Of a stretch of 64,000 bases of DNA, positions 10,603-58,303 are shown one piece after another; position 1 is the first letter of the stretch; the number at the start of each line of letters is the position of its first letter. The DNA is taken from the NCBI GenBank assembly GCA_963922205.1, contig CAWUHX010000035.1, positions 248,001-312,000 on the forward strand, read 5' to 3'. The stretch comes from Romanomermis culicivorax. Its lineage: Eukaryota; Nematoda; Enoplea; Mermithida; Mermithidae. The position numbers were made by a program, and so were the translations under genes. The notes under the pieces are model-generated. The model searched no databases, was not told the DNA's origin, and saw nothing but the letters and a program-made list of their open reading frames with translations.

Positions 10603-11090
10603 GTTTCTACGGTGTAGTCTCAACCTTGCCACCATCCAAACATAGCTACCGTTTGATATGACGGTAAAAATTCACCATTTTATATAACGTTTTTGAAGGG
10701 CTTCGTGGATATAAATTTGGCGTAACATACTAACATTTAATCTTGTGAAGCAAACAGGATGCCTCTATATTCACAAAACATGTTAAATAATCATGCCATC
10801 AAGGCGTCTTTAATTTTCATAAGTTTCTTTGGAAATGATTGAATTGTGATGGTAAGCTAGGCTTGCTGGTTCTAATGCACATTTGCATAACTAGGGCGTA
10901 CTGCATATGGATGACTTCAGTTCAATTTAATATTTTCTACATCAAGAATTGAAGAATATTTTGCCGATTGTCGAACCGCGAAATCCTCAATTTTCCCAAA
11001 AGAATCAAAGCATTTATCTAATGATGTTTTATCAAATTATTGCGTCTGTAAATTTTGCTTGCCTCTTAGAAAAGCGGAATCAGCCAGAGC

Positions 11091-11455
11091 TATGGTTCAA
11101 AAAGAAAGACTTGTGACGGATCTAACCATGGGTCAGAACATCGCACGCAGGCTTGCCGTCGTCTACTTCCGACCAACATAAACATCTGGGTATGTTTATT
11201 TCACTTTGACCGATTTCTGAAGCACTGGCTACAGTCAAATATCTGGAAGCAGCTTACGAGGATGAAAATGGACAATTGGGACCTTGGAAAATCCAACAAG
11301 AAAAATATCCTTTATCTAAGAATACGTGACTCCGTGGGCAGTTCGATGTGCCGACTTGGAATAATTTTGACAACATTTTGATGTTCAATGAGCAATTGGT
11401 TGAATGTTCAGGCCTGCAAACAACAAACCATGCGGAAGGGTGGCACAATAAAATA
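11091..11455 (+). pseudogene. MULE-type transposase remnant, C-terminal part
   Basis: Conceptual translation gives broken but recognisable MULE signatures in order: MVQKERLVTDLTMG then IARRLAVVYFRPT, like the helical segment after the DDE domain; SEALATVKYLEAAYEDENG; then PTWNNFD and TTNHAEGWHNKI, matching the W-N-x-Y/F and TNN-x-x-E-G-W-H motifs near the end of MULE transposases from animals. Stops (one after PLSKNT, one after PT) and at least one frame change show it is dead. It lies inside the FB1 inverted arms, which ties that element to the MULE superfamily. The N-terminal catalytic part was not found. Confidence 0.65.
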
Positions 11456-11930
11456 GACTAGGATTTGGGTAACGCCTTGAGTTCATTTTTGAATTGATTT
11501 CACTGAACCAATCATTTAGACCAAGTATGTACATAATTGTTAAAGAATTTGATCTACAAAACATTTAACTTTTTATTCTTGCCAATGAATTGCTCAAAAG
11601 AATTATTTTAGATACGAATTAGACAGCTGATGAGGGGAATTCAACCGAGACAATATATTTTTCGTTGCAAGTGGAAAAAAATTTTGTGCGTTCAAAAATT
11701 GCTTTTGTGTGAATGATGCCGTTGGCTGTAGATATTTGAAGCACTTAGTGTAACTGCTCAGTTGAAATGTTTGATTGATTCAGTAAATTTGAGGAAATAA
11801 GTCATTTGTAAAATTGAGAAATAAGCAAGGAAGGCACACTGCTTGCTTCACGAAATCATATGCCAGCATGTTACGAAATCCTTAATAACATAGTATAAAA
11901 AATGGTAACTTTTTACCATCATATCAAACG

Positions 11931-12013
11931 GTGGCAATGTTGGGACGGTGGCAATGTTGAGACGATGACAATGTTGGGACGATGGCAATGTTGGGATGGT
12001 GACAATGTTGGGG
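11931..12013. repeat. 17-bp minisatellite, right arm of FB1
   Basis: Five tandem units of exactly 17 bp of the form gtggcaatgttgggacg with a few substitutions. The left arm at 10617-10650 holds about two inverted units. Confidence 0.85.
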
Positions 12014-12029
12014 CACAATCGTTTTAACG

Positions 12030-13708
12030 CCTTTCTTCAGTGCTGCATTTTCAAAATACATAGGTTTTTGTTGCTAAAAATATGCAACAATGACTTTTTA
12101 TGGGTCATATAAGCAGCATTGCTAACACATTGAGTCCATGCACTCAATTGATAAAGGAAAATACATTCATTCACTGAAATTTCATATAAACACAGATAGA
12201 AAACAAGTATCTCACCTCTACAATATCGTGTTAACACCCGGGTTGGGTTTTATTTGTGAAATTGATCCCGATATATCCGAGCACCCGGTGTGAAGCACTA
12301 ATTAGGAACCAAAATAACTTTTTATAAAAAAACTTTTTTAAACTCCATTTCTCCAGAACTTGTATACAGCGTCTCCCGAAAATGAACCGCCATTCTTCTG
12401 ACAGGCTTTGAAGAATGTTTACAGTGCAAAGTAATTTCACCAAGATAATTTGTCTAATTTTTTCCCATGCCAAGGGGTGTGTTGATTCCAGCAAGAAAAA
12501 ACTTCCCATAATCAGCTTAACATCTTCAATGCTTTTCTGTTATTTACTGCCTACCCTAGTGCATTGGTTTAAACGTTGTAACAATGTTAAAACAATTTTC
12601 GCTGGCAGAAATTCAGAAACTGGGGACATAGTGTAGATTCCAAAAAGCAGTCACATCAGAAACTGTTCATCTGTCAACAGACAGGAAGGTCAATGATCAG
12701 TAATTTATTTTCCGCAAAAACGCTATATGCGGGCTCCGAAATTACTATCAATATATTGTAATCCACATTCAAGACAATGCTCACTTGACAGTCTTCTCTG
12801 ATGCAATATGCCCGCACGGATTAAATGCATAATTTAAAGCTGATGAATCTAAGTGGAATGTCGGTTCCATTCCCATCGTTAACTGAATAATTCTTCCTGA
12901 CTGAAATGCCAAAATGAATTGAAGCTTTTTGGTAGTTCAATAAGATAGCTTTCGCAGAAAAAAGTTCAAAGTTTGCGGAATTTATACTTATGTAGCCTGT
13001 TTTTCTTGAAATCACGCTTGGACAAACTCTATCCATTCGGCTGGTATCAGTCAGTCCAAAAAGTTGGTCGCTATAACCGGAAATAGATGCAAACAATCAA
13101 ATTTGAATTTTAATTTTTTTTCAAAGTCTATATGCTTTTAGGATGTAGCAGAAAAAATAGCATTAATGTTGAAGATAAAATTCAATTTTGTGTCCTGATG
13201 CCGGGAACTAGCTCAGTAATCGGGTACTGTAGTTGACTTATCAGATACAACCAAGTTGTATCCACTTGAATCTATCATTTAGGTATGCCTGAAATATTTC
13301 TAAATAAAATTGAAAAGCATTTATTATTGCATAACTTCATTATTGACAATTAATGACAACAATTATTGTTGCCATTTTTCAATTTACAGCATTTTATAAT
13401 AACTGACTATAAAATCATTTCAAGAAAAATTATCGAAAATCAAATTGTTTGAAAGCATATTTTTGCAGTTCGAAATATAAGGCTCCTGCTGACATAAAAA
13501 ATGTCCTCGAAGCATCGAAATATTCCATCTAAAAACAAAGCGGCGGAATGTCAGCGTTTAAATTTTCGGCAAAATTGGGTCGTTATTCTGTTATCAAAAA
13601 AGTCTACTCGTTCTAGGATACCAAAAATTCCTCTTTAATTTTTGCCTTGGCTTTTGGAATTGGATAATTATTTGATTCCAAACAGTTTTGCTGCTCTGCA
13701 TTTCTCAC
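12030..13708. other. non-coding DNA downstream of Pellino exons
   Basis: The missing last exon of the minus-strand Pellino gene would be expected here or further left. No reverse-strand segment encoding a second CGH...CPFC pair could be found. A minus-strand open frame at 12821-13096 was not recognisable. Confidence 0.4.
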
Positions 13709-13951
13709 TTCAGTATTACACATCGGACATCTGTGCTTTTCGATCGAATCCTTATTCGAACTTTTGTCCTTGTGGCCCCAAGCATGGCGGCCTTGCACGT
13801 GCCCACAATTCGAGTAGCAATATGGCTGGCGTTCCGAGTCGAATAGGGAATCACTTTTACGTCTCGGAATGATCAATGTGTTCAAATTTACGGGACATAC
13901 TGGACGACCTGCATTCAAGCGATCAAGCGTTTGATCGAGATCTTCACGAGT
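13709..13951 (-). CDS. peli: Pellino exon, first half of RING-like domain
   Basis: 243 bp, acceptor TTTTCGCAG, donor GAA|GTGAGA. Carries CPV, NCGHVQGRHAWG and HRCPMC, the first Cys/His set of the RING-like domain. If the donor is not used, translation runs 31 residues further to a stop at 13613-13615 with a Lys-rich tail unlike Pellino, so splicing to a further exon is the better model. Confidence 0.92.
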
Positions 13952-16900
13952 CTGCGAAAAATAAAGATGAAAGATCTAGCTACATCGCATCGACAGAGGA
14001 TATGAAATTTCTGTCATAAAAACATGGAATTTCCGTCAGCAAAACTTCGAAAAAGCCACAGTGATTGATGAAAAGACGTGAAACTTTTGAATTTCTCAAC
14101 AATTCTTTTGGTCATGACCATATGTCTCTATTTTGAAAAATCCTTGAGTATCTTATAACAAAGACATAAATAGATCTAACTCATTCTTGGGGCAGTAGGT
14201 AGTGATGTAAGCAATAAATGAATTCGGATGTACTGTTTAGGTCTATTTTACGAGCAAAAAACCTGCAAGAATCATGATCATAAGTTGAACAAAAAGTATA
14301 GACTTTTCGAACATTTTTAGACTTTCGAGACATTTTGGTAAGCAGCAAATCAATCCATGAAAGTATATAAACAGGAGTAGACAGTAGATTTGTTGAAAAT
14401 CTTAAAAGCTGGAGATATAGACAGTTTGCGGTCGTAACTTGAGAAAAACTATTTTAATGAAGAAAAAATGAAAATGTCAACAAATAAAAAAGAAAATACT
14501 TGTAAATAGCTTTTCGCTAATAACTGATGATGATCAAATTATCAGAGTTACCAACGCCGGATTCATCGAAGGCACTTAAACTACCGTTGAGCAGCTGCAT
14601 AAGCTCTAGCTTAACTCAGAGATCCCCAAGATCATATTTTTAGATAGGGGTAAATTTAAAAATTTACGGGTGTAGTCTAAGTAAATGTCTACTGAACACG
14701 TCATTTTTCCAAAAATCAGGCACCCAGTGATGGATTTTTAGGACTTTGAGTAGGGGTAATACCCCCTCATACCCCTCCCCATGGGGCAGTCTAGCTTAAC
14801 TCCATATGTTACATTATTGCCTCTAAAATGCAGCTCAGTCGCAGCGTAACTTGTACACGCAAAACATATCGAGAAAGAAGCTGCAGTTGAACTGCACCTT
14901 CGCGGTGATCTAATAACAGACAGAGTTAAGCTACGGTTCAACCTGCAGCTAAGCTGGAGCCTAAGTTCTTTTGATGAAACCGGGCCCAGTTCTTTTGCGA
15001 ATGATATATTTCGATTTACGCTTGTCTTGAAACTAGACAGGAATGGTCACGAACGACCGTGGAACCCCATATTCAAAAAATTCACAACATGTGAACGGAG
15101 CCGAGACCTGAATTTATCTTTGTATGCGTAGGCTAATTCCACAGCAAGAAACTTTCGAGGATTATTTTTGATTCTATATTATAAAGACAGTGTCTGACTT
15201 TGGAATATTGACATGGTACTAAACCGACATTTTCGATAATTTTTTGAAAACGACCAAAATTGTCAGATTTAATCATATCAAAAACTAAAAATTATTAATT
15301 TACAGGCGAACACGCCAAACCATTAGCCGATCGGAATAATAACGTGGCGCCGCACAAGTCTATTAAGGTTCCGTCGCGTAAAATATTAGACTCGTTATCA
15401 ACTTTTTCGCCCCGCGTCGGTGACGAACGCGTTTTTCTCAGCGTATAAACGTCGCCGTCGACGGAAACTTCCCGCCAAGCGTACATCGTCGCCGTTGTTG
15501 TCGCTCCATCGTTGTTCACTGCAAAAAAAGAAACAGATTTCTGACATAGACACTAACAGATAGAAATCGGGAGAATTACATGTATGACCGCACATAAATT
15601 TATCTCACATTAAAATTGACAAATTTTCAAAGTGCTAAACTTTTTGAACCTCAGCATTGGTGCTTCCGTTTAAACACCGCAGATCCTAATCAAAAACTTT
15701 TAGACAGCGTTGCAGAAAGAAGTTAACAAAATAGATCTATTCTTATGGACATGTTTAAGCACCATAAGCATTAGCTATCTGTAACTTCTTTATTTTTCGG
15801 GTAATCCCTTGAAGTGAATATTGAGAAAAAATATTGTTGAAGATATCCGATTAGTCCTTACGTTCGATAAGAGGAGTTGGACAAAAGTTCGGATGTAATA
15901 TCAATACTCCATTAGTCGTTAGTGCGTCTATTTGACCATTTTTCTTGTGCCACTTTGTGGCCTTTTCCTGATGAGAAAATAAATAAAAATACATATAGAA
16001 CGAAAAAAACTACAAACTAGGGTTGTCATAGGCCCCGGGAACCCTAGCCCCGGCCCGGTTCGGGGCAAGACTACAAAAAATTAGTATTTTTGATAGTATA
16101 ACAAGCTCGATTTATAATAAAATTGAAGTTTAGACTGTGACAAGTAAATATTCAGTAGTTGGTTTGACAGTAATACTTTTAGGAATCACTAAATTCATGT
16201 TCTATTTGGATAAAAGTTTAAAAGTTTTCATTATATCCGGAACTGCACTTCATCTTCAATTGATTTTTTCAGAAAAAGTACAATTATATTAGCTATTCAT
16301 TATTACTGATTTGCCTAAACTTCAGTATATGTTAATATGTTATATGTCTGCCCCGGCCTCGGGGCAGCTGCCCCGGCCCCGGCTAAAATGTCTGCCCCGG
16401 GACAACCCTACTACAAACTAAATAAATATGTTAAATAACGACCGAAAAAAAATATTCAGGAAACCGAGCAAAAATGTAAACAGCGAAAAAACTCAAAGGA
16501 GCACGTCATGATTAACTGGTTCTAACTATAATAGTTGAGCGAAAAAATATAAAGAGTGCTCTATTGTTTGAATAATAATTTAACGATTCATTTCGACGTA
16601 CTTCAAGGGAAACACCAAGAAGATTTTCCGGTCTGCAATTATTGCTTGATTAATATCGCAAACTAAATAAACATTTTCAAGCATACTGCAATATACGGAC
16701 TACCAAATCGTTTTGCAAAGTCATTAGAAACTGAGCATCCCCGTGTCGTAATGTCGTATGCCCAAATCCACGTGGCCGGCGCGTTAGAAAAATAACGCTC
16801 AGTGAGGATCTCGAACCCTCGACCAAGGCAGACGTGCTACCAACTGCCCTAACCGAGCCACGTGCATGGTCCGGAAATTGTGGTTGTAGTATGGTGAGTG

Positions 16901-18001
16901 CGGGGTGTGCCGCGTAATGAACAGCCGGACGCAACACTACAACCCCCATTCGAGGAGGAAGAGCAACAATCAGTAAAATATTGTAGTAAAAAATTCTGAT
17001 AGAATTTCATTTCCTACACTTTCTTTGATGAAATTCAAAGCGTTGACCTAATTCATACATATATTCTAAATTTCCAATCATAAAATAAGGGTTAAAACTA
17101 ATTCGTACATATATTCTGAATTTTTAAAAGCTAAAAAACTTACTCCGAGAAAAATATTCTTCGACGAATCGAAACCGGCCGCAAAAACTCGAGCTTCGTG
17201 AGGTTCGTCTCTTTGGACTAAAATACGACAAGCGAATCGGCTAATTGTACTCTGGGACGGTTTATTAAATATATCCGGCGAGAAACAATCGACGCCCAAA
17301 TACGTATCGACGACGGTGAAGTCGATTTGAGGTTCGGAAGATCGGCCAATCTATATTGTTAACAAGGTAGTGCCAATTTTTTCAATTAAAATGCATTCAA
17401 TTTCTTTATTTCCCCTAAAATTATGATCTTTAGCCAGAAAAACACCACCTGTCTGACTATTTAAAACGAGAGAAATTTCTATCTTTGACTGCTAATACCT
17501 GCAACATATCACTATTTTCGTCTAAACGATATTCTACGACGACCGACTTGTTCCTGCAGAGAGTATAAGTGACGGAATGAAATGAACTTTTGAGCAATTC
17601 AGTTTTTTCTCTGTCGTCAACAGCATGGTCGCGAAATTTGATTACACCGTTCGGTCGCGGTCGTTTTAAAAGTTCGAATCGGCTATTATGCGGTAAAACA
17701 TTCCTATCGTTGTCGTTTCGCGACTGACCGTTATAGCTGAAAATTTTCAAAAAGTTACCCATAATGTATAGAAAGACAACGGCAAAATTTATTTTTCGAC
17801 TTTCAGGGTTCGTCAAAATTTTTCGAAATCCGGATAAGTAAAAGTTCAATGAATTCGCAAGCCAGTACATAATTACCAAGAGAAAAATAATTTCAAAAAA
17901 TCCGAGTCATTAAGAATTATTTTGAAAAAATGGCTTACCCAAGAACAATCAGTTCGCCGTACTTTGTCGTCATACTATCCGGTTCATTATGCCAGTACAG
18001 T
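13709..18001 (-). CDS. peli: Pellino E3 ubiquitin-protein ligase (partial, six exons)
   Basis: Cytoplasmic scaffold and RING-like E3 ligase that ubiquitinates IRAK/Pelle-type kinases in Toll/IL-1 receptor signalling (family knowledge). Exons on the minus strand: 17939-18001, 17499-17736, 17144-17350, 15862-15967, 15304-15518, 13709-13951. All phases join, giving about 357 residues. Family hallmarks in order: KYGELIVLGYNG; SRFELLKRPRPNGV; VTYTLCRNKSVVVEY; QSTISRFACRI and AAGFDSSKNIFLG (FHA-like core); KWHKKNGQIDALTTNGVL; GTLIDLCGATLLFRSANGL; and the RING-like start RPVCPV, SNCGHVQGRHAWG, HRCPMC. An upstream exon with the first codons and a downstream exon with the last two Cys/His pairs are expected but not seen. 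Introns carry a hAT MITE and a tRNA-like repeat. Confidence 0.93.
15304..15518 (-). CDS. peli: Pellino exon, wing / pre-RING region
   Basis: 215 bp, acceptor TTTTTTGCAG, donor CCT|GTAAAT. Encodes WREVSVDGDVYTLRKTRS and GTLIDLCGATLLFRSANGL. A Thr/Ala-rich run (GATTTATMYA) at its start is longer than I expect for the family. Confidence 0.93.
15862..15967 (-). CDS. peli: Pellino exon, central
   Basis: 106 bp, acceptor CTCATCAG, donor AAC|GTAAGG. Encodes EKATKWHKKNGQIDALTTNG and continues to LILHPNFCPTPLIE. Too short to appear as an open frame of its own; found by frame and homology between its neighbours. Confidence 0.93.
16018..16410. mobile_element. hAT-type MITE in Pellino intron
   Basis: A 393-bp element with inverted ends TAGGGTTGTC / GACAACCCTA and a perfect 8-bp target duplication CTACAAAC (16010-16017 and 16411-16418). 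TAGGG fits the hAT terminal pattern YARNG. GC-rich subterminal blocks built of GCCCCGG repeats enclose an AT-rich core. It lies 50 bp from the acceptor side of the Pellino exon at 15862-15967. Confidence 0.88.
16742..16946 (-). repeat. tRNA-like dispersed repeat (SINE-like), copy 1
   Basis: On the minus strand, GGCTCGGTTAGGGCAGTTGG looks like a pol III A box and GAGGGTTCGAGATCC like a B box, flanked by inverted CACGTGGC/GCCACGTG. The A-to-B spacing is shorter than in a functional tRNA and there is no proper anticodon arm. A second copy at 46160-46617 shares 16742-16946 end to end apart from a MITE insertion. Confidence 0.7.
17144..17350 (-). CDS. peli: Pellino exon, FHA-like region part 2
   Basis: 207 bp (69 whole codons), acceptor CAATATAG, donor GGA|GTAAGT. 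Starts IGRSSEPQIDFTVVDTY and contains the most conserved Pellino blocks, STISRFACRI and AAGFDSSKNIFLG. Confidence 0.95.
17499..17736 (-). CDS. peli: Pellino exon, FHA-like region part 1
   Basis: 238 bp, acceptor ATTTTCAG, donor CAG|GTATTA. Begins YNGQSRNDNDR and ends VVVEYRLDENSDMLQ, matching the end of the corresponding family block. Reading on past 17499 leads into the intron. Confidence 0.9.
17939..18001 (-). CDS. peli: Pellino exon, N-terminal
   Basis: 63 bp, acceptor TTCTTAG, donor GG|GTAAGC. Encodes LYWHNEPDSMTTKYGELIVLG. The first base completes a codon from an unseen upstream exon, although the internal Met could in principle start a shorter protein. Confidence 0.85.
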
Positions 18002-21232: not shown

Positions 21233-21234
21233 TA

Positions 21235-25532: not shown

Positions 25533-26937
25533 CATACATGTAATTGGGGGGGGGGAAGTGCTATGGGAACCCATCCCCCCCAGAAATCGTCGACCATATG
25601 GCTAGCCATCGGGCGACCGCCCCCCCCCAGGATTTTCCAATCCTATGGCTAGCCATATGGTAGCACTGTTTTTTTTTCCCCAAATCGTGCTTTTTCGGGA
25701 AAAAAAATTCGGAAAGGGGAAAAAAATTTTGGGCTCTTTCCCCATTTGGGGAAGAAAATTTTGGGGATCGGATACAGAAAAGATGCATTTTGGTGCATTT
25801 TAGAATGTCATAATCCCAAAATTTTCCGGCGCTTCGCGCCGTTTATAACTTTAATAATCATTATTATGCATTACTTAGCTCAGGCACGGCTTTCAGCACG
25901 TCTACCTTCATTTATCATATAATCTATAATAGTTTTCATCATCTTGAACGTATTATCTCATGTTTTCATTGGTAATCTTCAATATTTTATCGTGATATTT
26001 AATGAAGATTCGCATTTTTTCCTTTTGAAAAAGATCAGTACGTCAAGTCTCTAAGCTTTTCGATGCGATTATTTCTTTTCTAACGTAAAATCAATTCAAA
26101 CGCTTCATGGAAATATCTTTCGGAAATTTATACCCTGCATACTCATATATTTTCGACTAAGTATGAGAGTTTACAAATAAATTATACTGGTTTTAAAATT
26201 TTTCAAGTAAAATTCTAGAAATTACGACTTTTGAACACAAAATTCAAATCTAATTCTTGAAATAAATGTTCGGAAAATTGATTTTCCAGCGTCGCAGAAT
26301 ATCAATACCCAAAAAATTTTTCCGGCGCTTCGCGCCGGAAAGATTAACATCCATTTTGGGTTCTCACTTGTCATCATAGAGAACCTAACCATCGATTTCT
26401 CATGTAGTTCTCAAAGTCATTATGCTTTTGGATAGTTTGCTTGAAAATTTGTTCCAATGCTTGTAGATTAAACTTTGAACTCGAAAATTTCAATTTTTTC
26501 CTCAATTTTAATGAATTAACGGGTCTAAAAAACACCAGCAGGCTTGAAAAGGCTCAAAAACACCTAAATAAAGCGTCTGTGAGCATTTTTAAGCGAAAAA
26601 AACGACTTCGGGAAAATGGGGAAAAAAATTTTGATCCCTTTCCCCATTTGGGGAAAAGGTCCGGGGGGGAAAAAAACAGTGTATGGTAGCCCTAGGGAGC
26701 CCCATAGTTTTAGTCGGAAAAATACTGAAAAATGTCATTTTTTCTATGAATTATCATTTTTTAGACAAAAATTACTACTTTTTAAACCGTTTTCGAACAT
26801 TTTTCATGGAAAAAATCGAATTTTTTTTCCTTCAGGGACCCCTCCCCCCCAAAATTTTGGGAATTACTGACCCCCGGCCCCAAAAAAGTGCTCCAACCCC
26901 CCCCCCCCCCAGACCTCGGAGCTCCGTTACATGTATG
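25533..26937. mobile_element. inner CATACATG element, split by a hAT-like insertion
   Basis: Left end CATACATGTAATTGG, right end GCTCCGTTACATGTATG. It is the inverted relative of 7152-7585, including ATGGCTAGCCAT and the flanking ACCATATGG. The flanks CCCCCAAC and CCCCAACC are the same 8-mer with a C-run slip. Between 25664 and 26681 a hAT-like element interrupts it. Confidence 0.82.
25664..26681. mobile_element. hAT-like element (CACTGTTTTT family), intact copy
   Basis: A 1018-bp element: ends CACTGTTTTTTTTTCCCC and GGGGAAAAAAACAGTG, with a perfect 8-bp target duplication TATGGTAG (25656-25663 and 26682-26689). The empty site exists in the 7152-7585 copy. It contains two near-identical hairpins CGGCGCTTCGCGCCG (near 25827 and 26321) about 500 bp apart. 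Non-coding. Confidence 0.9.
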
Positions 26938-28252: not shown

Positions 28253-31200
28253 GTAAGGGTTTAAAATCAGTTAATAGTAGTGACTATTCATTCTGAATTG
28301 ATCGCGTGAAACCAAGTTCAACACGGGAAAACCTGCTTTTAATGAAATATATGTAAATTAATTTCCAGTCATATACTGCTTGTGGTTGAGCAGAAAATTA
28401 AAAAAATGTGAAAACAAGCATATAAAAAAATAGATTATAATTTAGCTTATTAGTGTAGAATGAATAAAATTACTGGTCCAAGTAAACAAGACAAATAAAC
28501 AAAAACCTCGTTAAATGACCAAAACTTTTAGAGGAACATTCAGCGTCAAAACCTATTCTATCTAAAACCAAAATGGACGTCGTGGTCCTTGTATGTATTT
28601 TTTCCACAAAGATTCGATATTAGCTAAACTTTGATATCTTTCCGATCTACGTACTGAAGCACTGTTGGGTGGAATCCTAGAGAAAACCGTGGATTATTGA
28701 GTGAAAACATGATCTCAACAAATTTGTTACTTAAAAAACATAAGTTTACTTCTTTGTCCGTTCATTGTATTTTAATTATAAGTATTGTAAGATATGCATA
28801 ACACACGAATACTGTTGATTACATAATTTCCATGTAATGATCTAAACACTGACAACAACATTCTATGGATTACAGCGAGTACATCTTATGATGTACTGTG
28901 GCCCTGTATGAAATTTTATTAAGGAACCGAAATTGAAAGAACGGACCCGACCGTTCCAGGGGACCGGTTGTAATGCTGTAGCCTATTTGTTTTGAAATGA
29001 CCCACTCTGCTAGCCAATTAATGTAGCACAGAAAATTAGTGAACTCGTATTACTGTAGACATAGAAAAAGGCTTTCTCGTCCACAAAAACCAGGCTGTTT
29101 TCTTTAATAACCTTATCAAGTGGTCAAAACATCGATGTTGACACAGTTCTATCCAAATTAAAAATGCAGAAGTTTTTCACTGCGTGAATATTTTGTGGTC
29201 TAAGCAGAGGTCAATTTTTTTTATTGTTGCTGCGCCGTAAAAAGTAAAGGAGCCTCTGCTCCTTAAATTTGAAATAACAGATGAGCATTCGAAGTTTCAG
29301 CAACACACTATCAAGGAAATCATTTTAGCACTTTTAGAATGGTTGAAAAAGATCATACTTAATTTCCAATAGAAGTTGCGCTGCGACCTCGCTGCATCGA
29401 TTTTCAAAAGAGATTAAAAAATTCGTTCTTCAGACCACACTGTGCAGTAATATCATCCTACTCGTGCTTAGTACTTGAACAACGATCAAACTATATTATC
29501 ACGTTTACGACTTGCTCAGGGTTTTATTTACGAAAAATAGCTATCTGATGACCTCCTTGGCGGATCAGCGCTGGATTCAGCAGAATAAGCCTAATATCTA
29601 GCGGAATTCACAATAGCAATTTTTTCAAACTTGGAAAAATTTTTTCACATTGACTTTTTTGATTCTGGGCAATAATTTTGAAGATTCCATCCAACAGTAT
29701 CGATTGGAGCAGACGGAGACGAAAAATAGTTAGTTACAAATAGTGCGATCGACGATTAACGAACGTAGAAACTATGCTCTCCATTCATTTTGAAATGATC
29801 GATGTAGCGAGGTCGCTGCTAAACTTTTGTTCAAAATTGTGGAAGACTCGTTGAGTCTATTTTATGAATTTTTCCTTCATGATTCAAACTCGTTGATGAT
29901 CACTCTTTTCAATAATTTAAAGGCTATAGAAATTGATTTCCTGGTCTCTGGTAAGGCTGCGTTTATCAAAACTTCGAGCGTTGCATCGATCATTTCAAAT
30001 TTGATTGAGTATATTAAACTGTTAGGGAATGTATTTTGTCGTACATTGGCGTTCGTTAGGCGCGAGTAATGTTACACTACTATAAGCGAATCTGTTTAAC
30101 CTTGAAATGCAATAAACAATTGGAACTACCTATGACTGATTTTTGACTTCGCAGTTAGAATTTCGCTGATGAACAAGAGAGTGTTTTTATAGAATGCTTT
30201 CAAATCAAAAAATGATGGCAAAAAAACGTTTCAGAACTGATGATTACAAAAAAATTCAATGTTGAGTTATAATGCAGATCTACAGCTTTAAATGATGCGA
30301 GGTTTATCAGAAAATTACAAAAGAGTTCTTCCTAAACGGTTTTATTTTTTGGAAGCATTCGACACATTGTACTGTTGATTCAGATTACCTATGCACTCTG
30401 TGGATCATTTTGAAGTACACATTTGAACTTCAGTGAGAAATTAAAAAATTTTCTGACGATCGATTGTCCAGAGGCCCTTGATTTGAGTTGGATTGCTTGC
30501 TGGAATTGTTTGCTTGAGCTGTTTTCCCAACAGCCTAGATCTGGTCTAAAAATTTGTTCCAAAGTCATAATACAAGCTACAATGTCAAAATGCCGGCAAA
30601 TTTTATTATATTTGGTCGGAGATCTGAAATAGACTTCGCATAATATCATCAATTTTCCCTAAATTTTCAGCGGTACTGCCGCCGCTGACGCCCCTAAACT
30701 CGAGTTCAAAAAAGCTACGGCAGCGCCCAAAGTCATTCCCTTATACATGGAAACTTTGCCCGAAACGGAAACGGCTGCTGTGGTCAAAAAGTCGACAAGA
30801 ACCGCTCCTCAGAAACAGACGCCTCAATACGTTGAATCTAACGATTTGGATGCCGTGAAAGCCGCCGCTGCCGTTCCGGCCGCTGGTGCGCCGGCCTACA
30901 TCGAAGTCGGTCCCAAAGATGCGACTCCCGGTCAGCCACATTATATCGCGGAAAGCGAAATTCCAAAATTCACAAAAACTAGTAAGAACTGATAATCTGA
31001 TCACTGCTGTTGAATTTCGTGCATCACGTTCTTCATGATACTAAAGAATTTTGAGCCACAGAACTATCGTGTGTAGAAATTCAGCTAATGATTTTCTTTA
31101 TTTTACTTCTCATAAGGAAAGTTACCCTGATCGCATTACTATCATCCCGAATTGAATGATTATTGTTCTTTTTACATCCTGCCATATGTGGACACGTGAC

Positions 31201-34200
31201 CGGACATTAGAGCGTGGGACAGTAGAGCGCGGACATTAGAGCGCGGACATTAGAGCGCGGACATTAGAGCGCGGACATTAGAACGCAAAGACATTAGAGC
31301 GCAGGGACACTAGAGCGCAGGACAATAGAGCGCGGTCATTAGTGCGCAGGACATTAGAGCGAAGGGACATTAGAGCGCAGGACATTAGAGCGAAGGGACA
31401 TTAGAGCGCAGGGACACTAGAGCGCAGGACAATAGAGCGCGGTCATTAGAGCGCGGACATTAGTGCGCAGGACATTAGAGCGCAGGGACACTAGAGCGCA
31501 GGGACACTAGAGCGCAGGGACATTAGAGCGCAGGACAATAGAGCGCGGACATTAGAGCGCGGACTTTAGAGCGCAGGACAATAGAGCGCAGGGACATTAG
31601 AGCGCAGGACGATAGAGCGCAGGGACATTAGGGCGCATCTATTGGTTCGAAAAAATTTCAGCCAACTTTCCGTGATCTGCAATGAACGCGAATTTTAAAT
31701 TGTTTTTGAACACGAAAAAAGAATACTAAGCAAGAAGCTCTATTTCAAAAGCTGACAAAAAACTGCGTGTGTGATTCTGAATGCGAGTTAGAAATTCAAG
31801 ACTAATTCAAAAATAACAAAATGAAACAATTTTATTCGATGGTTTAAAGGTCAAATATCTGCGATTTTTTGCGTCTTTCGCTACTCTTGACAAAATACTC
31901 CATGGTGGAAAAATGCTTTGGCTTTGACTTGAACTTCTTCAGAGACACAAAAAAATGGTATTTTTGGACTGAAATGGAGTTATTTTTCACATTATTTTAT
32001 TTTCGTTTTTTTATTTTGCTATGATCTAATTTTTCTGTGCTCTATGGTCCTGCGCTTTAATGTCTCTGTGCTCTACTGTACATGCTCTATCGTCCTGCTT
32101 TCTAATGTCCTTGCGCTCTATCGCGCCTATCCGTTATTGTCCTGCGCTCTATTATTGTCTCAGTGGCCGAGGCAGAAATTATTTCGGGGGAGGGGCGGAA
32201 ATTTTTTATTTACAATTTTTATATTTTTGTTAAATTATTTGCTTCGATATGCAAACGATTTTTTTCTTTTTTTCTCATTTTTCTTTTTTTTACTTTTACT
32301 TTTTTTCTTACTCTCACCTTTTTCTTAAAATTTTTTCTAAAAAAGCAAAACGAAAAAAGGACGAAACAATGGGGCAACTGGTAAGAAAATAGAGGATAGA
32401 TGAAAGAAGAAAAAATTCGAAGAAAGTTAATTTTGGCTACAGTATTCAATTAAGTTGTGTACATGTCTGATAATTTGCGTTTAACCTTTATCTTGATAAT
32501 TTGTATTTTTAGACCATGAGTTTACTAGACGCGGAAGCCCCCTGCACCCGCTACTGTATTGTCTCTAATGTCCGCGCTCTATTGTCCTGCGCTCTATTGT
32601 CCTGCGCTCTAATGTCCCTGCGCTCTATTGTCCTGAGCTCTATTGTCCTGCGCTCTAATGTCCGCGCTTTATTGTCCCGCGCTCTAGTGTCTCGGTACCA
32701 TGTGGACAGCATCTGTTTGATTTCAGAAACGGCTAGCACTATGGGACTGAAAATGAAATCTGCTCTACCAGTCCCACCAGCCGGTTGTACGGTACCATTG
32801 ACCGCTCCACCTCCCCCAAGTCACCGAATGCCGTCCTTGCCACCAATGGCTCCCGTTGGGGACGAAGTTGGATTCAAGGTTAGTCGATGTAAATTCGATA
32901 AATTTTTTATGTGAAGTTGAGAAATTCGAACTTCCGGATTCCCCCGTGATACGTTTCACTTTTCTGTTTACGAGATGATGGAATTCTTCCTGCTATTAAT
33001 TAGCAGAGATTATCCATGCACATACTAACGCTTACGTACTTGAGCAGGAAAAGTTTCAATTCATTATACTATTGCAATAATGTTAGACCATAGTAAATTG
33101 AGTATTGTTACACTACTTTCCCTGGATTCTTCTGTTCACACCCAAACTTGCATAATAAAGCGACCACAACAATGCACGAAGTATAAAAATAGATAGCAAA
33201 CTGTTGACTAATGCTAAAATCTAAGGTTTGCCATTAGTTTTGAGGAAATTCTTTGGATTTTCAACTTAGTGGTAGAGTGTACGGTCAAAGTAAAAATGAT
33301 TGGTGTAATGTTATGAAGGGTGCTATGGCATAGTAGTAACACTACTCATCGCAGGGACATGGCTGCATTGCGCTGGATGATACTAAAGTTTGAGCTTGAA
33401 ATAAACTCCTTCCGAAGAAGAGACGGAATGACTCGAAGGATATTTTTGAAGGAATGTGAATAAGATCAATTGATGGACATAAAATTCGACGTGATCTAGA
33501 AGCAAAAGTATTTTCAAATATTTGAAACAGGTTCTCTAAAGCTCCAGATTTGATCGATTAAATTAACAAGTATGTCCTGCAAAATATTTTACCAATTGTG
33601 ACTCGATTTGAAGATATTCTGACTCATCTGCATCGTTTTGTAGCATGATCTGTCAACAAATTTTCCTGCTTCAATTCCTTACGATAGAACATTTTCCTGT
33701 GAAAATTTCTAAATCCCTCATGTTATAGTGAATTCAATTGCCCAACGCAAGCTGAGTAAGGTTACACCATCCGTTTTTCCCAATGAGACCTTATTTACAC
33801 CAACATTTACATGAACATACTGTCTGCCTTTACCAGATCGCGAGAACCAAAGAAACCTAAAGGCCCTGTCATACTTCGCCGCGAGGTACTGCGCGGCGCT
33901 TTTTCTATTCATACTAGCAAGCGGCGCTGCGCGGTGCCTTGTCATACTTCACCGCGTTTTTACTTTCGGATTTTGCTCTCTGAATAAAAACCTTCGCGAA
34001 AAATTTGCAAGCACTCTTGCTTTTTATGGTTTTTGGAACTGCTAATTGCAATTGGCTTATTACTAAGACAATAGCAGGCCGTGGAAACGTGTTTACACCT
34101 ACTTTGCATATTAATAATTTTCTACATTCATATCTTCATTGTAAATTTTGTAATCATAAGAACCTATAGTCTCTTTTTCTGGAAATGCTTGTGAATAAAA

Positions 34201-39213: not shown

Positions 39214-39221
39214 GTCGAAAG

Positions 39222-39702
39222 GATAGTGTGACTGAGAAGAGTTTTTTACGCGTTGCTGAAGCAAAATCCCAAACTTTTTACAGAAAGTTGCGATTACCCG
39301 ATCCAAATCTAAAATTTCCCCAATTTTTCTCCGGATAAATATTCTTATTGGCATTAGAGACTTTAGAAGTGGAAACTTAAAATCAAAAAATGCATCAGTC
39401 ACTACAAAATAACACTTCTAGAGCTAGCTTTATAAGACAGTGTTTTTTAACAAAGATTCTTTCACAATATAGAATCGAGCTCGTTGAGTTAGCGAGTTAG
39501 CCAGCTAACTATCCGTTTACGCGAGTCGGCTAATTCGGAGTTAGACAGCTTTATGGAAAGCCCCCTGTCTCAACTCTTTCCCTGATGTCAAAATGATGAA
39601 CCAGCTAACTTTTTGAACATGGGCTTATAAGATGACATCATTGTGAAACCGTCTGTAGATGTTCTTCTTGAACTATAACTAACATGATCACCGTTTTCTT
39701 TA
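39222..39702. other. non-coding stretch
   Basis: No exon seen. Around 39480-39560 there are interleaved gagttagc/gctaact inverted words giving local hairpin potential. Confidence 0.35.
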
Positions 39703-39838
39703 AATTCTCCGACCGCTTCAATTCTCCGACTGTATTGATTCTTCGACTGTTGCCATTCTCCGACCAGTTCGATTCTCCGGCTATCTCGATTTTTCTACTG
39801 TCATGATTTTCGGACTGCTTTCTTTCTACGACTTTCAT
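39703..39838. repeat. 17-bp minisatellite
   Basis: Eight tandem, diverged 17-18 bp units of the form attctccgaccagttcg. No inverted partner was found nearby, unlike the foldback arms, although the unit length is the same. Confidence 0.75.
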
Positions 39839-40081
39839 TCGTTTTTTCTGTTCTCAATTGTTCGAATTCCCCGAGGGTCAGATTATTATACACTTATACC
39901 TAATGTTTTTTCAAATTCGATTTCAAAAGTGTGACTATAAGTCTGCCGATTTCATATACAGCACCAAATCTAACCGGTAACTGTCCCCTGAAAAATACAA
40001 ACATCAATCAGTATTGGGTTTCCATAAATGGTCGTAAGGTTAGTTACGTTTTCAGCGATAAAACGCGTTTTTTAAAAAATG

Positions 40082-44130: not shown

Positions 44131-44470
44131 CGTTACAATACAATTCAATACAATACAATACAATACAATACAATACAATACAATACAATACAATACAATA
44201 CAATACAATACAATACAATACAATACAATACAATACAATACAATACAATACAATACAATACAATACAATACAATACAATACAATACAATACAATACAATA
44301 CAATACAATACAATACAATACAATACAATACAATACAATACAATACAATACAATACAATAGAATACAATACAATAGAATACAATACAACAGAATACAATA
44401 CAATGGAATACAATACAATAGAATACAATACAATAGAATACAATACAATACTGTATAATACAATAAAATA
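44131..44470. repeat. (AATAC)n pentanucleotide array
   Basis: About 65 units of acaat/aatac, near perfect to about 44355, then with scattered C-to-G changes giving isolated AATAG units (44360-44440). Confidence 0.97.
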
Positions 44471-44603
44471 CAATACAAATACAATATAACACGAAGCGAC
44501 ACGACATGATACAATACTATAAAATACAGTATGATACAGTATGGTACAATAGGATATGATATGATACAATACAATACGATATGATGCGATATGATACGAT
44601 TTG
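44471..44603. repeat. degenerate junction between AATAC and AATAG arrays
   Basis: Loose five-base periodicity (gatac, gatat, aatac, ggtac), the most diverged part of the satellite block. Confidence 0.8.
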
Positions 44604-45860
44604 ATAGAATAGAATAGAATAGAATAGAATAGAATAGAATAGAATAGAATAGAATAGAATAGAATAGAATAGAATAGAATAGAATAGAATAGAATAGAAT
44701 AGAATAGAATAGAATAGAATAGAATAGAATAGAATAGAATAGAATAGAATAGAATAGAATAGAATAGAATAGAATAGAATAGAATAGAATAGAATAGAAT
44801 AGAATAGAATAGAATAGAATAGAATAGAATAGAATAGAATAGAATAGAATAGAATAGAATAGAATAGAATAGAATAGAATAGAATAGAATAGAATAATAG
44901 AATAGAATAGAATAGAATAGAATAGAATAGAATAGAATAGAATAGAATAGAATAGAATAGAATAGAATAGAATAGAATAGAATAGAATAGAATAGAATAG
45001 AATAGAATAGAATAGAATAGAATAGAATAGAATAGAATAGAATAGAATAGAATAGAATAGAATAGAATAGAATAGAATAGAATAGAATAGAATAGAATAG
45101 AATAGAATAGAATAGAATAGAATAGAATAGAATAGAATAGAATAGAATAGAATAGAATAGAATAGAATAGAATAGAATAGAATAGAATAGAATAGAATAG
45201 AATAGAATAGAATAGAATAGAATAGAATAGAATAGAATAGAATAGAATAGAATAGAATAGAATAGAATAGAATAGAATAGAATAGAATAGAATAGAATAG
45301 AATAGAATAGAATAGAATAGAATAGAATAGAATAGAATAGAATAGAATAGAATAGAATAGAATAGAATAGAATAGAATAGAATAGAATAGAATAGAATAG
45401 AATAGAATAGAATAGAATAGAATAGAATAGAATAGAATAGAATAGAATAGAATAGAATAGAATAGAATAGAATAGAATAGAATAGAATAGAATAGAATAG
45501 AATAGAATAGAATAGAATAGAATAGAATAGAATAGAATAGAATAGAATAGAATAGAATAGAATAGAATAGAATAGAATAGAATAGAATAGAATAGAATAG
45601 AATAGAATAGAATAGAATAGAATAGAATAGAATAGAATAGAATAGAATAGAATAGAATAGAATAGAATAGAATAGAATAGAATAGAATAGAATAGAATAG
45701 AATAGAATAGAATAGAATAGAATAGAATAGAATAGAATAGAATAGAATAGAATAGAATAGAATAGAATAGAATAGAATAGAATAGAATAGAATAGAATAG
45801 AATAGAATAGAATAGAATAGAATAGAATAGAATAGAATAGAATAGAATAGAATAGAATAG
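44604..45860. repeat. (AATAG)n pentanucleotide array, about 1.26 kb
   Basis: About 251 units, apparently perfect except for one shortened unit (aataatag, near 44893). Very long open frames on either strand here are products of the repeat, not genes. Confidence 0.98.
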
Positions 45861-47520: not shown

Positions 47521-47623
47521 GTTTCAGAACCTACGCCAATCCTCACAGTATCTAGATGTCTTTAAGAAAAATTTTTTTCTGTCTACCAGGTGCTGACCGT
47601 CTCCAGCTTTTTAAACGTCAACC

Positions 47624-47992
47624 ATGTCCGGTAAACAACCGCTAATTCCATCGACGTTGATGTTCGCCGTCATCGTTCTACCGCTTATTTTAGCGCACAG
47701 TATACCTACGATAAATCGATCGAAACGATCGCTGTCCAGTTACTTGCCAAATTCTTACGAAAATGATTTTTTCATGAGCTTCCGCCCGTATAGGGGGCGC
47801 CTACCGCGTTTGCCGCCCCAATTTCTTTTCAAGCGTCGTATCGGTACGACGTACGACGATTTGCCAGCTTCCGCCGCCGCCGTCGCCGAAAATTTCGGCG
47901 ACCAAATTTTCGATCGCGAAGATCGCGATTATAAAGATATGATTTTTGGTAAACGTGCCAGCAATGATTACGTTTTGACACCTTTCGGTTGA
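47624..47992 (+). CDS. candidate neuropeptide precursor, 122 aa
   Basis: The intact frame has a signal peptide of about 26 residues (hydrophobic LMFAVIVLPLILAHS). Basic cleavage sites follow: SKR (33-35), FKRR (69-72) and GKR (109-111). Cleavage would release a 34-residue peptide containing RPYRGRLPRLPPQFLF, a spacer ending KDMIFG that would be amidated to DMIF-amide, and a C-terminal ASNDYVLTPFG whose final Gly could also serve amidation. Secretion and amidation are inferred from motifs; I do not recognise a known peptide family. It could instead be a secreted protein with chance dibasic sites. The GC-rich third positions of parts of the frame contrast with the flanks and support coding. Confidence 0.65.
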   Translation: MSGKQPLIPSTLMFAVIVLPLILAHSIPTINRSKRSLSSYLPNSYENDFFMSFRPYRGRLPRLPPQFLFKRRIGTTYDDLPASAAAVAENFGDQIFDREDRDYKDMIFGKRASNDYVLTPFG

Positions 47993-51857: not shown

Positions 51858-51865
51858 CTTCGAGC

Positions 51866-54990: not shown

Positions 54991-56142
54991 TGTATGGTTG
55001 TTTTTCCCAGTGGACTACACAAAAATGTGCACACATGTTATGTGCTACCTGATCCTAAATTTCAGCAAAGTTTGAAAACTTCAAGTCTGAAGTCTGAATA
55101 AAGTTTGGAAAACTTCAGATTAAACTTGGACACGAGATCTGTTCATGAGCAGGTATTGATGGGCTCTATCAAACGCAATTTTTCGTTTGTTCATATCAGT
55201 CGTAGTTGCTGAAATCATGTGCCGGCAACAGTAAACCATTCTGTGCCACTTTCATGCAAATAAGGCCCACTGTAAATGAGGACTTATGTAACATTGTTCA
55301 GTTCGCTTCGAATTATTCAGGGTACCATGAGTTATCCTGTGATAGAATTTTTACAGGAAAACGTTCAATCGTCAGTTCAACACATGTTTTCGAATGCATC
55401 ATAATTTATATTATTTCAAAATTTACTCACCTTGAGAGCTTCTCACATCCGTCTTTTTGTCCAGACGATAATTATGTTAATTCAAAAATGATATCCAGTC
55501 AATTTTTTTTATAGAAACCGAGATTGAATAACAGTATTTTAAGTACTTGGAGAAATCTTTCCCGTGGTAAATTAAGAGTAGCTGTTGAACCTGAAATTCG
55601 GAAAGTTCACTGCTGATGAATGCATCAAATTTTTATTGGTTGGTAAGCGTCCAATACTAGTCAGTTTTTCGAACTTGTCTTAATTTTGCTAATCACGGAT
55701 TTTTTATGTAAAGTTGTAAGGATTGAGCTGAATAATTCAAGTTATTGTAAATATATCGACTGAACCTGTTATTGTCTTATATATATATATACATATATAT
55801 TAGATCCAAAATACGAGATTCGATCATCATCCTTTAGCGAACGCACCTATTTTTGGTTTTGAAATTTTAAAAATTTGAGTGAAGCTGTTATTGTCTGGTA
55901 CATACATATTTCAAGTGTTATGTTCCTTCAGATCGAAATTCTATTGGTCCTCCTATCTTCTACTCTGTTCCGACCCTGTTCACAAGCTGTGATGACATAC
56001 GAAAGTTTCATTTGTTGTTATTCAGTCTGAACATTGCTGTCGAAGTGTGAATTTCCAAGACGGGTTGAAACTTTGCGCAAAACCTGAAAAAACTTTTATG
56101 ACCAAAAAAATTCCTACTCCGAAAAATCTTCGTGTTTGTGCA
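54991..56142. other. non-coding stretch
   Basis: Includes a short AT dinucleotide run at about 55780-55800. Open frames at 54758 and 55206 (+) overlap repeat B or lack motifs. Confidence 0.35.
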
Positions 56143-56156
56143 ATTTTTTCGATTGT

Positions 56157-56400
56157 GTCTCACTTTGGCGCCCGTCTCATTTCTATCGCCCGTCTCACTT
56201 TGGCGCCCATCTCACTTTGGCGCCCGTCTCATTTGGCGTCCATCGTTGTAGGCACCAAAGTGAGACTGCTGTCTTACTTTGGCGCCCGTCTCACTTTGGC
56301 GCCCATTGTTCAATAATGACCTTTCTTGGATGTCCTAACTTGGCGCCCGTCTCACTTTGGCGCCCATCTCACTTTGGCGCCCGTCTTACTTTGGCGCCCT
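56157..56400. repeat. 17-bp minisatellite, left arm of FB3
   Basis: About ten units of tctcactttggcgcccg in two blocks, one unit inverted (near 56250-56265). Confidence 0.92.
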
Positions 56401-56789
56401 ATCATAGTCTGCTTTTCGACATTCATGCTGATCATTTACTTGGGTGAATCCCCATTCACCGAAGGTCCTGTTTCCCCGGAATTCCTCTTTCCCCCAAGAA
56501 TGCTTCAAAGCTTTTTCTTGAAAGTCCCTATTCCTCAAAATTGTCAAACCTCGTTTCTCCAAAAATAGATGAAGGTTATTTTTAGTTTGCAGTTTGTAAA
56601 TTGCTAATTTTCCTTGAGAAGATTGTAAATTGTAGGATTTAGCACGAAATTCGCACGGTAATAAAATTAGTGAAAAATTGGAAAAAAATCTTTTCACGTT
56701 TGATACGCTTAGCTTCAACTTCGGATCGGGTAAGGCGCACAAAGTGGATTGTGACCGTGATCCGGATTTGACATGAACTGCGGCATGAC

Positions 56790-57870
56790 CAGTGTTTTTT
56801 CTGCACAGTGCAGACTTTTTAGGCTTCGTGCAGATTTTTTTTTGGTGATTTGTGCACTGGTGCAGAACTTTTTGAGTTTTGATCACATCGGATACAGAAA
56901 AGATGCATTTTGGTGCATTTTAGAAGGTCATAATCTCAAATTTTTCCGGCGCTTGGCGCCGGTTATAACTTTAATAAGCATTATTATTTATTTCCTAGCT
57001 CAGGCGTTGCTTCTAACACGTCTACCTCCCCTTACCATTTAACCTTTAATAGTTTTCATCATCTTAAACGTATTATCTCATGTTTTAATTGGTAATTTTC
57101 AATATTTTATCTTGATATTTAATGAAAATTCACATTTTTTCCTTGACATACTTTTTGACAAAGATCAATACGTCAAGTCTGTAAATCTTTTGAAGCAATT
57201 ATTCCTTTCTTAACGTAAAATCAATCCAAAAGCTTCATGGAAGTAGTTTTCGGAAATTTCTACTTTTCTTACTCATATCTGTTCGGCCAAGTTCATAAGA
57301 GTTTGCGAATAAATTACTGGTTTTAAAATTTTCCGAATAAAAAATTCTAGAAATTACAACTTTTCAACACAAAATTTGGATCCAATTCTTGAAATAAATA
57401 TTCGCAAAATTAATTTTCCAGTGCTGCAGAATGCCAATAATACCCGGAAAGATTAATATATTTTTTGCTCTCACTTGTCATCATAGAGGACATAACCGTC
57501 GATTTCTCATGTAATTGAAAGTCATTATGCTCTAGCGTAGTTTGCTGGAAAATTTGTTCCACAATGCTTGTAGATTAAACTTCGATCAAAGTCAAAAATT
57601 TCAAATGTTTCCTTAATTTTAATGAATTAACGGCTCTAAAAAACAGCAGAAGGTTTGAAAAAGCTCAAAAATATATTAATAAAGCGTCCATAAGCATTTC
57701 TAAGTGAAAAACGACTTCGGGAAAATAGGGAAACAAATTTTGACCCCTTCTCCCATTTGGGGAAAAGGCCCGGGGGAAAAACAGTGGTAACAGGAGAAAA
57801 CTGCAGTCAGAAACTTTTTTTTGGCTTTTCTGCACTATGCAGAAAGCCCGGTGCAGAAAAAAAGACACTG
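56790..57870. mobile_element. hAT-like element with CTGCAC subterminal repeats, inside FB3
   Basis: Ends CAGTGTTTTTTCTGCAC and GTGCAGAAAAAAAGACACTG. Extra GTGCA/TGCAC words lie just inside both ends. Flanks GGCATGAC and AGGAATTC do not match. It encloses a CACTGTTTTT-family fragment (56885-57786). Confidence 0.6.
56885..57786. mobile_element. hAT-like element (CACTGTTTTT family), left end missing
   Basis: Follows the intact copy at 25664-26681 from 'catcggatacagaaaagatg' to the right end GGGGGAAAAACAGTG. Keeps one hairpin, CCGGCGCTTGGCGCCGG, near 56947. The left terminal part is replaced by the GTGCA-rich sequence. Confidence 0.7.
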
Positions 57871-58127
57871 AGGAATTCCGATGACTGTTGCAAGAAACGC
57901 ATCCGAAGTACTTTAACTTTTTTCTTTTTGAATAAATAAAAAAGATCCGAATTAACTCTACTTTCACAAACCAACATTGACATTTGACAATAAAAAGACA
58001 GAATAGAGCGGGCTTCCTCGAAATCAGTCATTTTAGTTTCATTAAAAGTGTTTTTATTGAATGGAGTTTAGCAGGGTAACTGACTATTTTTATGGTAATA
58101 TAAAACTGCTTGTTTATTAGGACACAC

Positions 58128-58289
58128 AATGCGCCAAAGTAGGACGGGCACCAAAGTGAGACGGGCGCCAAAGTGATATGGGCGCCAAAGTGAGACACAG
58201 CTTGGGCGCCAAAGTGGGACGAGACGCCAAAGTGAGACGTGCGCCAAAGTGAGATTGGCCCCAAAGTGAGACGGGCGCCAAAGTGAGAC
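58128..58289. repeat. inverted 17-bp minisatellite, right arm of FB3
   Basis: About nine units of cgggcgccaaagtgaga, the complement of the left arm. Confidence 0.92.
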
Positions 58290-58303
58290 TGTACCATTTT
58301 TTC

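Follow-up and report, generated by a model that had tools for sequence, protein, structure and literature searches.

Foldback minisatellite arms of probable MULE transposons in the nematode Romanomermis culicivorax: families with common tips and diverged arm units

This study was concerned with inverted minisatellites in a 64,000-nucleotide stretch of DNA from the mermithid nematode Romanomermis culicivorax (contig CAWUHX010000035.1, positions 248,001 to 312,000), referred to as the window. Tandem-repeat and inverted-repeat searches of the 64-kb window detected pairs of inverted minisatellite arms at three places, designated FB1, FB2 and FB3, plus a lone array. FB1 and FB3 are very probably decayed, and FB2 apparently non-autonomous, cut-and-paste transposons of the MULE (Mutator-like element) superfamily whose terminal inverted repeats are of the foldback (minisatellite) type. 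The genome contains at least 11 such array families, which form two groups by their tips and by the length of their target duplications, and the eight families represented in a transposase tree agree with this split.

Each element begins and ends with a different short tip, X or Y, and the arms are tandem arrays of a family-specific unit. The elements of the window, their duplications, the insertions that interrupt them and the lone array are as follows.

10611-12020, no strand: FB1, a decayed MULE foldback element with Y tip GGTGTAG at left, X tip GATTGTG at right and arms of 17-bp units
10603-10610 and 12021-12028: FB1 target duplication, 8 bp, 6/8 identical
31195-32699, no strand: FB2 foldback element with X tip CGTGACC at left, Y tip GGTACCG at right and arms of 14-16 bp units
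31186-31194 and 32700-32708: FB2 target duplication ATGTGGACA, 9 bp, 9/9 identical
32161-32556, no strand: miniature inverted-repeat transposable element (MITE) of 396 bp in the FB2 right arm, with ends CAGTGGCC.. and CAGTAGCG.., flanked by direct repeats TATTGTCT
56151-58295, no strand: FB3 foldback element with X tip GATTGTG at left, Y tip GGTACAG at right and arms of 17-bp units
56143-56150 and 58296-58303: FB3 target duplication ATTTTTTC, 8 bp, 8/8 identical
56887-57786, forward strand: unrelated interspersed repeat of about 0.9 kb within FB3, 82% identical to 25767-26681
39692-39840, forward strand: putative stranded arm of a fourth family, FB4, with a Y-like tip CGTTTTCTTT followed by eight 17-bp units, core TTCTCCGAC

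These elements have the long inverted repeats of tandem short repeats that define a foldback structure. The right arm of FB2 is split by the 32161-32556 insert, around which TATTGTCT is duplicated; we take this MITE to be hAT-like from its end motif and 8-bp duplication. Among random pairs of sites, a match equal to the FB2 duplication occurs at about 0.1% and one equal to the FB3 duplication at 0.7%.

The 359-Mb assembly that contains the window was searched with a pattern for each unit. The FB3 pattern occurs 1112 times (590 forward, 522 reverse), the FB2 pattern 1366 times (669 and 697) and the FB1 pattern 394 times (167 and 227); the reversed control patterns gave 0 matches genome-wide. 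In addition, 20 FB3, 20 FB1 and 5 FB2 stretches were fetched. These were picked from the first listed places, mainly those with arrays on both sides, so they are a non-random sample from which the frequency of array-less copies is not readable. Rows with both ends and enough flank were obtained for 20 of 21 FB1 loci, 20 of 24 FB3 loci, 5 of 6 FB2 loci and, from two families introduced below, 7 of 11 M1 and 1 of 2 M3 loci.

The ends are precise. FB1 has X GATTGTG-CCC and Y GGTGTAG-TCC, FB3 has X GATTGTG-TCT and Y GGTACAG-TCT, and FB2 has X CGTGACC-GG and Y GGTACCG-AG. Thus, the X end GATTGTG is exactly common to FB1 and FB3, and their Y ends are near-identical. The end patterns tolerated 3-4 mismatches, which biases the calls towards consensus tips; the duplications are independent of that bias. 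Under free pairing, 20/20 FB1, 16/20 FB3, 5/5 FB2 and 6/7 M1 rows had one X and one Y end. The run that measured duplication length instead forced one X and one Y per copy, and its null paired flanks from different copies. Identity peaked at 8 bp in FB1 (mean 0.88 against 0.33 in the null, n=20) and FB3 (0.73 against 0.32, n=20), and at 9 bp in FB2 (0.89 against 0.26, n=5) and M1 (0.90 against 0.33, n=7). Each of FB1, FB2 and FB3 is thus, in the genome of the window, a family of many copies with precise ends.

An earlier note, made from the letters of the window alone, had proposed three foldback elements with alike ends and units of 15-17 bp. The elements themselves are borne out by inverted arms at all three places, by the multicopy families and by ends bounded by target duplications. 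In the window and fetched copies, unit spacing is 17 bp in 160/198 cases for FB1 and in 270/292 for FB3, and 14-16 bp in 319/322 for FB2. The likeness of the outer ends holds for FB1 and FB3; FB2 has CGTGACC at X and shares just GGTAC at Y.

Two observations concern foldback elements nested in FB3 copies. One FB3 element (L009, C3) contains, at about 1423-1990, oppositely oriented units of the FB1 type, which probably represent a short FB1 copy nested there. At L089 (C36, 330-2487) an M5-type element is apparently inserted in an FB3 array, that is, one foldback MULE family is nested in another.

The link to the MULE superfamily comes from coding remnants. Searching the genome for MULE sequences yielded 122 matches. 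MULE remnants are present in FB1 copies L066 and L072, the former with E 1.8e-5 against a profile built from this genome's MULE loci, and in an FB3 element of about 4.3 kb (L090+L091). The FB3 element has X and Y tips, an 8/8 duplication CTTTAAAG (by eye), an RYYR-CCHC-like N part (E 0.0015) and a MULE domain. The Pfam MULE profile gave E 1.4e-15 for M1 (L033) and 2.8e-13 for M3 (L046). In the window, both FB1 and FB3 retain parts of these frames.

10904-11698, forward strand: FB1 transposase remnant, with N part 10904-11130, MULE part 11148-11255 and C part 11330-11698
56733-56795, reverse strand: FB3 transposase N-part fragment, 67% identical to L090, E 7.5e-5
57927-58040, reverse strand: FB3 transposase N-part fragment, 61% identical to L090, E 1.6e-8, lying beyond the inserted repeat

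The MULE part of the window FB1 is 64% identical to the L066 copy (E 5e-10), and its C part matches at E 8e-12. A genome search with the L066 MULE frame returned 94 rows, of which 13 are no more than 4 kb from an FB1 array; these represent 10 places, the window among them (by eye, against the 100 FB1 places listed out of 394). The C17 row of this search lies inside the FB3 element L090+L091. FB2 arrays stand beside this C17 MULE, and it was considered as the FB2 transposase and rejected; it belongs to the adjoining FB3 element. Pfam reported RYYR-CCHC for FB1, FB3 and M3, and did not report FLYWCH in the frames scanned (FB1, FB3, M1 and M3). Target duplications in the MULE superfamily range from 8 to 11 bp, and those of FB1 and FB3 (8 bp) and of FB2 and M1 (9 bp) fit this range. 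The 8-bp duplications would also be compatible with hAT or P transposons, which are rejected for FB1 and FB3 because the coding remnants are MULE. The copy L076 was considered as an autonomous FB1 and rejected; by inspection its large frame did not resemble a transposase of this kind.

Other MULE loci of the genome have the same build. Thirty were cut out, and 20 of these carry a 14-18 bp tandem array on at least one side (11 M1, 5 M2, 2 M3, 1 M4 and 1 M5), 9 of them as inverted arrays on both sides. No 14-18 bp arrays were seen at the other 10 loci (3 of set U1 and 7 of a distant set, L048-L052, L054 and L055), and the units of FB1, FB2 and FB3 are absent from all 30. Opposite arms were fetched for one copy each of M2, M4 and M5, and a further MULE locus gave family M6. 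A previously unread MULE match, C122 (33% identical to FB1), gave M7, whose tips are GATTGTG, at the start of a 17-bp array, and GGTTGTA. Seven further M7 copies have 8-bp duplications (2 at 8/8, 3 at 7/8 and 2 at 6/8), and nine M7 places adjoin MULE rows of the L066-frame search (by eye). In total, 7 of the 9 other MULE sets (M1-M7) have their own inverted 14-18 bp arrays. Set U1 (L030, L034 and L039) is related to M4, and no array is found within 1.5 kb on either side of it. The distant MULE-like set has frames of up to 1354 aa, and its member L052 has a 101-bp inverted repeat (1-101 and 2503-2603, 99%). Transposase evidence thus joins FB1 and FB3 to seven further array families in one superfamily, as the earlier note had supposed of one transposase family; for FB2 no transposase was found.

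Two groups of array families can be told apart. Group A (FB1, FB3, FB4, M3, M5, M6 and M7) has the X tip GATTG[TG]G, a different second tip and 8-bp duplications. Group B (FB2, M1, M2 and M4) has other tips, GA at positions 9-10 and 9-bp duplications. The single-copy duplications are 8/8 in M3 and 7/8 in M5 for group A, and 9/9 in both M2 and M4 for group B; for M2, M4, M5, M6, FB4 and L090 the duplications were scored by eye. In a tree built on 123 MULE columns with no outgroup, FB1, FB3, M3, M5 and M6 separate from M1, M2, M4 and U1 (support 99.1/99). When a distant outgroup was added, it joined FB3 weakly (35), and group B kept 90. The dinucleotide CA at +11/+12 holds in FB1, FB3, FB2, M1, M3, M4, M5 and M6; in M2 the outermost unit has AA.

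The earlier note had also suggested that the lone array may be a stranded arm, and this reading is strengthened by the rest of the genome. All eight units are at exactly 17-bp spacing, and no inverted partner array was found in the window. Genome-wide, the pattern of the array occurs 92 times forward and 104 times reverse (0 for the control), and a number of places have it as inverted pairs separated by 0.8 to about 3 kb. Three such pairs were read and have X GATTGTGG and Y CGTTCTATTT, with duplications of 8/8 at C6, 7/8 at C8 and 8/8 at C4 if one extra Y-tip base is allowed. The start of the window array, CGTTTTCTTT, matches the FB4 Y tip at 8/10, which is equalled at 0.08% of window positions. 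From these sequence comparisons, the lone array is best read as a Y arm left stranded by a fourth family, FB4, with X tip GATTGTG.

The arm units were compared in phase, counted from the tip. An array begins some 10-12 nt in from the tip, and copies of one family differ in array number. The seven group A units have a mean identity of 0.468, compared with 0.276 in shuffled or rotated sets (p<=5e-5). These comparisons use unit and tip strings taken by eye, and for M3, M5 and M6 the strings come from one or two copies. In the five group A families read first, C1, A2, G8 and C9 were common to all, a pattern broken by M7 and FB4; in that five-family test the M6 base in column 13 was the analyst's choice, and 4 invariant columns are left under the alternative. 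FB1 and FB3 units are identical at 9/17 positions in phase (p 0.012 by shuffle, 0.12 by rotation). FB1, FB2 and FB3 units have 4 in-phase columns in common, compared with 0.79 by chance (p 0.005 by shuffle, 0.019 by rotation). Since the group A units are alike in phase above chance, they look like diverged versions of one ancestral site. The units are better described as diverged, phase-locked relatives than as unrelated sequences. Thus, the earlier view that the three units are not alike was correct in that each family has its own unit, and was too strong in that the in-phase likeness is above chance.

How the units change was also considered. The earlier note had suggested that the transposase tolerates or drives turnover of the arm repeats, and driven turnover finds no support in the arrays. 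Rare unit variants common to both arms of a copy number 0 in 47 copies (between copies, 0.06-0.10 per pair), and homogenization from arm to arm within a copy was therefore rejected. Hybrid arrays were likewise rejected as the source of new units. In one order, the search for FB1/FB3 hybrids gave 5 matches, all of which carry 3 mismatches and correspond to the FB3 variant GTCTCAACTTGGCG; the opposite order gave 0, so mixed arrays were not found at the stringency tested. With neither arm homogenization nor FB1/FB3 mixed arrays, unit change likely occurs in active lineages between bursts. Two of the units were also sought in viral contigs by exact matching, with 0 matches.

Among the other explanations, the one that survives best is that the units are neutral passengers: slippage would build arrays near the ends, and the transposase would read the 7-10 nt tips alone. 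This is in keeping with unit sequences that differ among families with a common X tip and with an array number that is variable within a family. However, it does not account for the in-phase conservation of units between families, and in Drosophila the THAP domain of the Galileo transposase binds the arm repeats, according to the available text of that report (PMC3688188). We consider the passenger explanation unlikely, and prefer units that take part in recognition.

A second explanation holds that the common tips of FB1, FB3, FB4 and M7 arose by convergence through a common cleavage chemistry, in elements that are not closely related. FB1 and FB3 are indeed not resolved as sisters, and their units agree at just the 9/17 positions noted above. 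Nevertheless, 6 of the first 7 X positions are identical across all seven group A families, the group A units align in phase above chance, and the transposases of FB1, FB3, M3, M5 and M6 form one supported group. Convergence is thus quite improbable, and common descent of the group A families is favoured.

Third, FB2 could be mobilized by the FB1/FB3 transposase, so that all three window elements would be one set, as the earlier note had it. Their Y ends start alike (GGTACC and GGTACA), and the units of the trio share the 4 in-phase columns. The earlier note had itself named differing duplication lengths as an observation that would speak against one set, and FB2 has 9 bp, not the 8 bp of FB1 and FB3. 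The X end of FB2 also differs, and its tips are closest to those of M2 in group B (CGTGACCGG and CGTGTCCGG). FB2 is placed outside the FB1/FB3 set because its duplication length and X end differ, and we rate the single set a shade lower than convergence. From its 9-bp duplication and its tip CGTGACCGG, compared with CGTGTCCGG of M2, FB2 would go with group B. The last explanation, that the arrays are ordinary minisatellites or satellites in chance inverted pairs, has in its favour the satellite-like homogeneity of the tandem units and the solitary FB4 array of the window, and is dismissed almost entirely by the fixed asymmetric tips, the sharp 8- or 9-bp duplications across many copies and the transposase genes between arms.

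Several results weigh against the reading of these elements as MULE foldback transposons. First, the FB1 duplication of the window is weak, with 8/10 in its best register (equalled by 4.4% of random pairs) and 6/8 in the register of the family; the 6/8 duplication of the single M6 copy (by eye) is weak as well. Secondly, some domain scores are low. The Pfam MULE match of FB1 L066 (E 0.0046) is below the curated cut-off, that of FB3 L090 (E 8.9e-6) is slightly under it, and RYYR-CCHC scores are under the cut-off in FB1, FB3 and M3. Third, no MULE profile match was found in the window FB2 and five fetched FB2 copies, nor was one seen near FB2 X-end places (by eye, among the 100 listed out of 270), and no transposase was identified for FB4. 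Thus, the MULE membership of FB2 and FB4 is suggested by their tips, arrays and duplications. Fourth, 4 of 20 FB3 rows did not have one X and one Y under free pairing. Two of these (L011 and L012) look mis-called and one (L027) is ambiguous; the copy L021 (C57) apparently has a Y-type tip at both ends and no duplication. Fifth, a universal CA at +11/+12 was predicted beforehand for C122, and failed in M7 and FB4. Lastly, FB1 and FB3 are not supported as sisters (13.3/54), and the tree covers eight array families, with M7 and FB4 outside it.

The architecture itself is known. Tm1 of root-knot nematodes comprises MULE foldback elements with composite inverted repeats of a tandem 13-15 bp motif (PMC3169594). 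The earlier note knew of no description of such a set; the kind of element has been described in Tm1. Tm1 has asymmetric 7-bp tips (CGGTTAA and CCTACCC), generally one kind per end, followed by 3 bp and an array from 10 nt. Its duplications are 8-10 bp, mostly 9, and it has autonomous and non-autonomous copies (PMC3169594). The elements studied here are similar in their asymmetric tips followed by an array from about +10 to +12. One Tm1 copy has the same tip twice and no duplication, as in L021, and the Tm1 unit begins with CGATTC at the array start, as the FB4 unit does (PMC3169594). The usual 9-bp duplication of Tm1 is found in FB2 and M1, whereas FB1 and FB3 peak at 8 bp. There are also differences. 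In Tm1, a single family with almost a single unit is described from two species, and the transposase has FLYWCH and MULE domains (PMC3169594). In contrast, R. culicivorax has at least 11 unit families in one genome, in two groups, the tip letters differ, group A has units of mostly 17-18 bp and 8-bp duplications, and Pfam reports RYYR-CCHC, not FLYWCH, in the frames scanned.

Other systems are more distant. Animal MULE transposases of the Phantom subclass of Mutator, which Marquez and Pritham are said to have described in 2010, reportedly have foldback-like flanking ends in some cases. Phantom is described as FLYWCH plus MULE (PMC3169594), and differs from the frames scanned here, in which FLYWCH was not found. 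The Galileo families of Drosophila have a tip of about 40 bp that is conserved between families, and a transposase domain that binds the arm repeats; in the available text the tested binding site has no significant match in related families, and Kepler and Newton are the Galileo subfamilies K and N (PMC3688188). Galileo, Kepler and Newton are similar to the present families in having a common conserved terminal stretch and differing arms, and are different in belonging to the P superfamily, with a THAP domain and long arm repeats rather than a MULE domain and 15-17 bp minisatellites (PMC3688188; PMC3573991). Arm-repeat binding in Galileo serves as an analogy for a possible mechanism, not as a sign of membership. 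Tetris of Drosophila virilis is, in the text available, likewise a foldback transposon tied to tandem DNA (PMC4079207). In a 2026 survey of arthropod MULEs, arm lengths are 13-1193 bp, and the available text uses none of the words tandem repeat, foldback and Phantom (PMC13359780). At the level of titles and abstract openings in the open literature, with subscription papers and repeat databases outside the search, no genome with several unit families and common tips was found. Because Tm1 has the same architecture and no such multi-family genome turned up, the set is called a new variant and not a new kind, with Tm1 as its nearest published relative.

A mechanism may be proposed for these families. 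The tandem units would be bound by the N-terminal region (RYYR-CCHC-like in FB1, FB3 and M3) of the MULE transposase, which would cut at the conserved short tips, and end specificity would come from many weak sites. Many weak sites would leave array number free to vary and allow the unit to drift with the lineage of active copies. New units would arise as active lineages diverge and amplify, and not via recombination between families or between the arms of old copies. A bolder proposal, which we hold tentatively and think somewhat more likely wrong than right, is that tip and arm unit are two separable codes, the tip being a shared cleavage site and the unit a family-specific address for the N-terminal domain.

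Other features of the window were noted in passing. These are a simple-sequence array of (AATAG)n, 1.7 kb long and strongly skewed between strands (44147-45860); exons of a Pellino E3 ligase gene with FHA and RING parts (13616-17906, reverse strand), indicative of an animal; dense nested long inverted repeats of up to 199 nt and 78% complementary (6716-9344), with related stretches at 26.7-26.9 kb and 63.6-64 kb; and a frame with no Pfam match that resembles the precursor of a small secreted peptide or neuropeptide, with dibasic sites (GKR, KR) of the cleavage type (47615-47989, forward strand). An Rfam search for nematode SL1 RNA, in which 50 of 149498 candidates were scored, gave no match, and its control gave none either.

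These families bear on why foldback transposons use minisatellite ends and on how a transposase tracks end repeats that change. The genome of R. culicivorax has at least 11 array families, in which the tips are conserved and the units phase-locked but diverged. Transposase genes or remnants are tied to nine of the families, and a number of its inverted minisatellites are accounted for as transposon arms. Such a series in one genome makes the co-evolution of transposase and repeat directly testable by comparison and by simple binding assays. If the two codes are separable, sibling MULE families with the same GATTGTG tip would be insulated from each other, and the recognition code could be deduced from the natural range of transposases with matching units that this one genome would contain.

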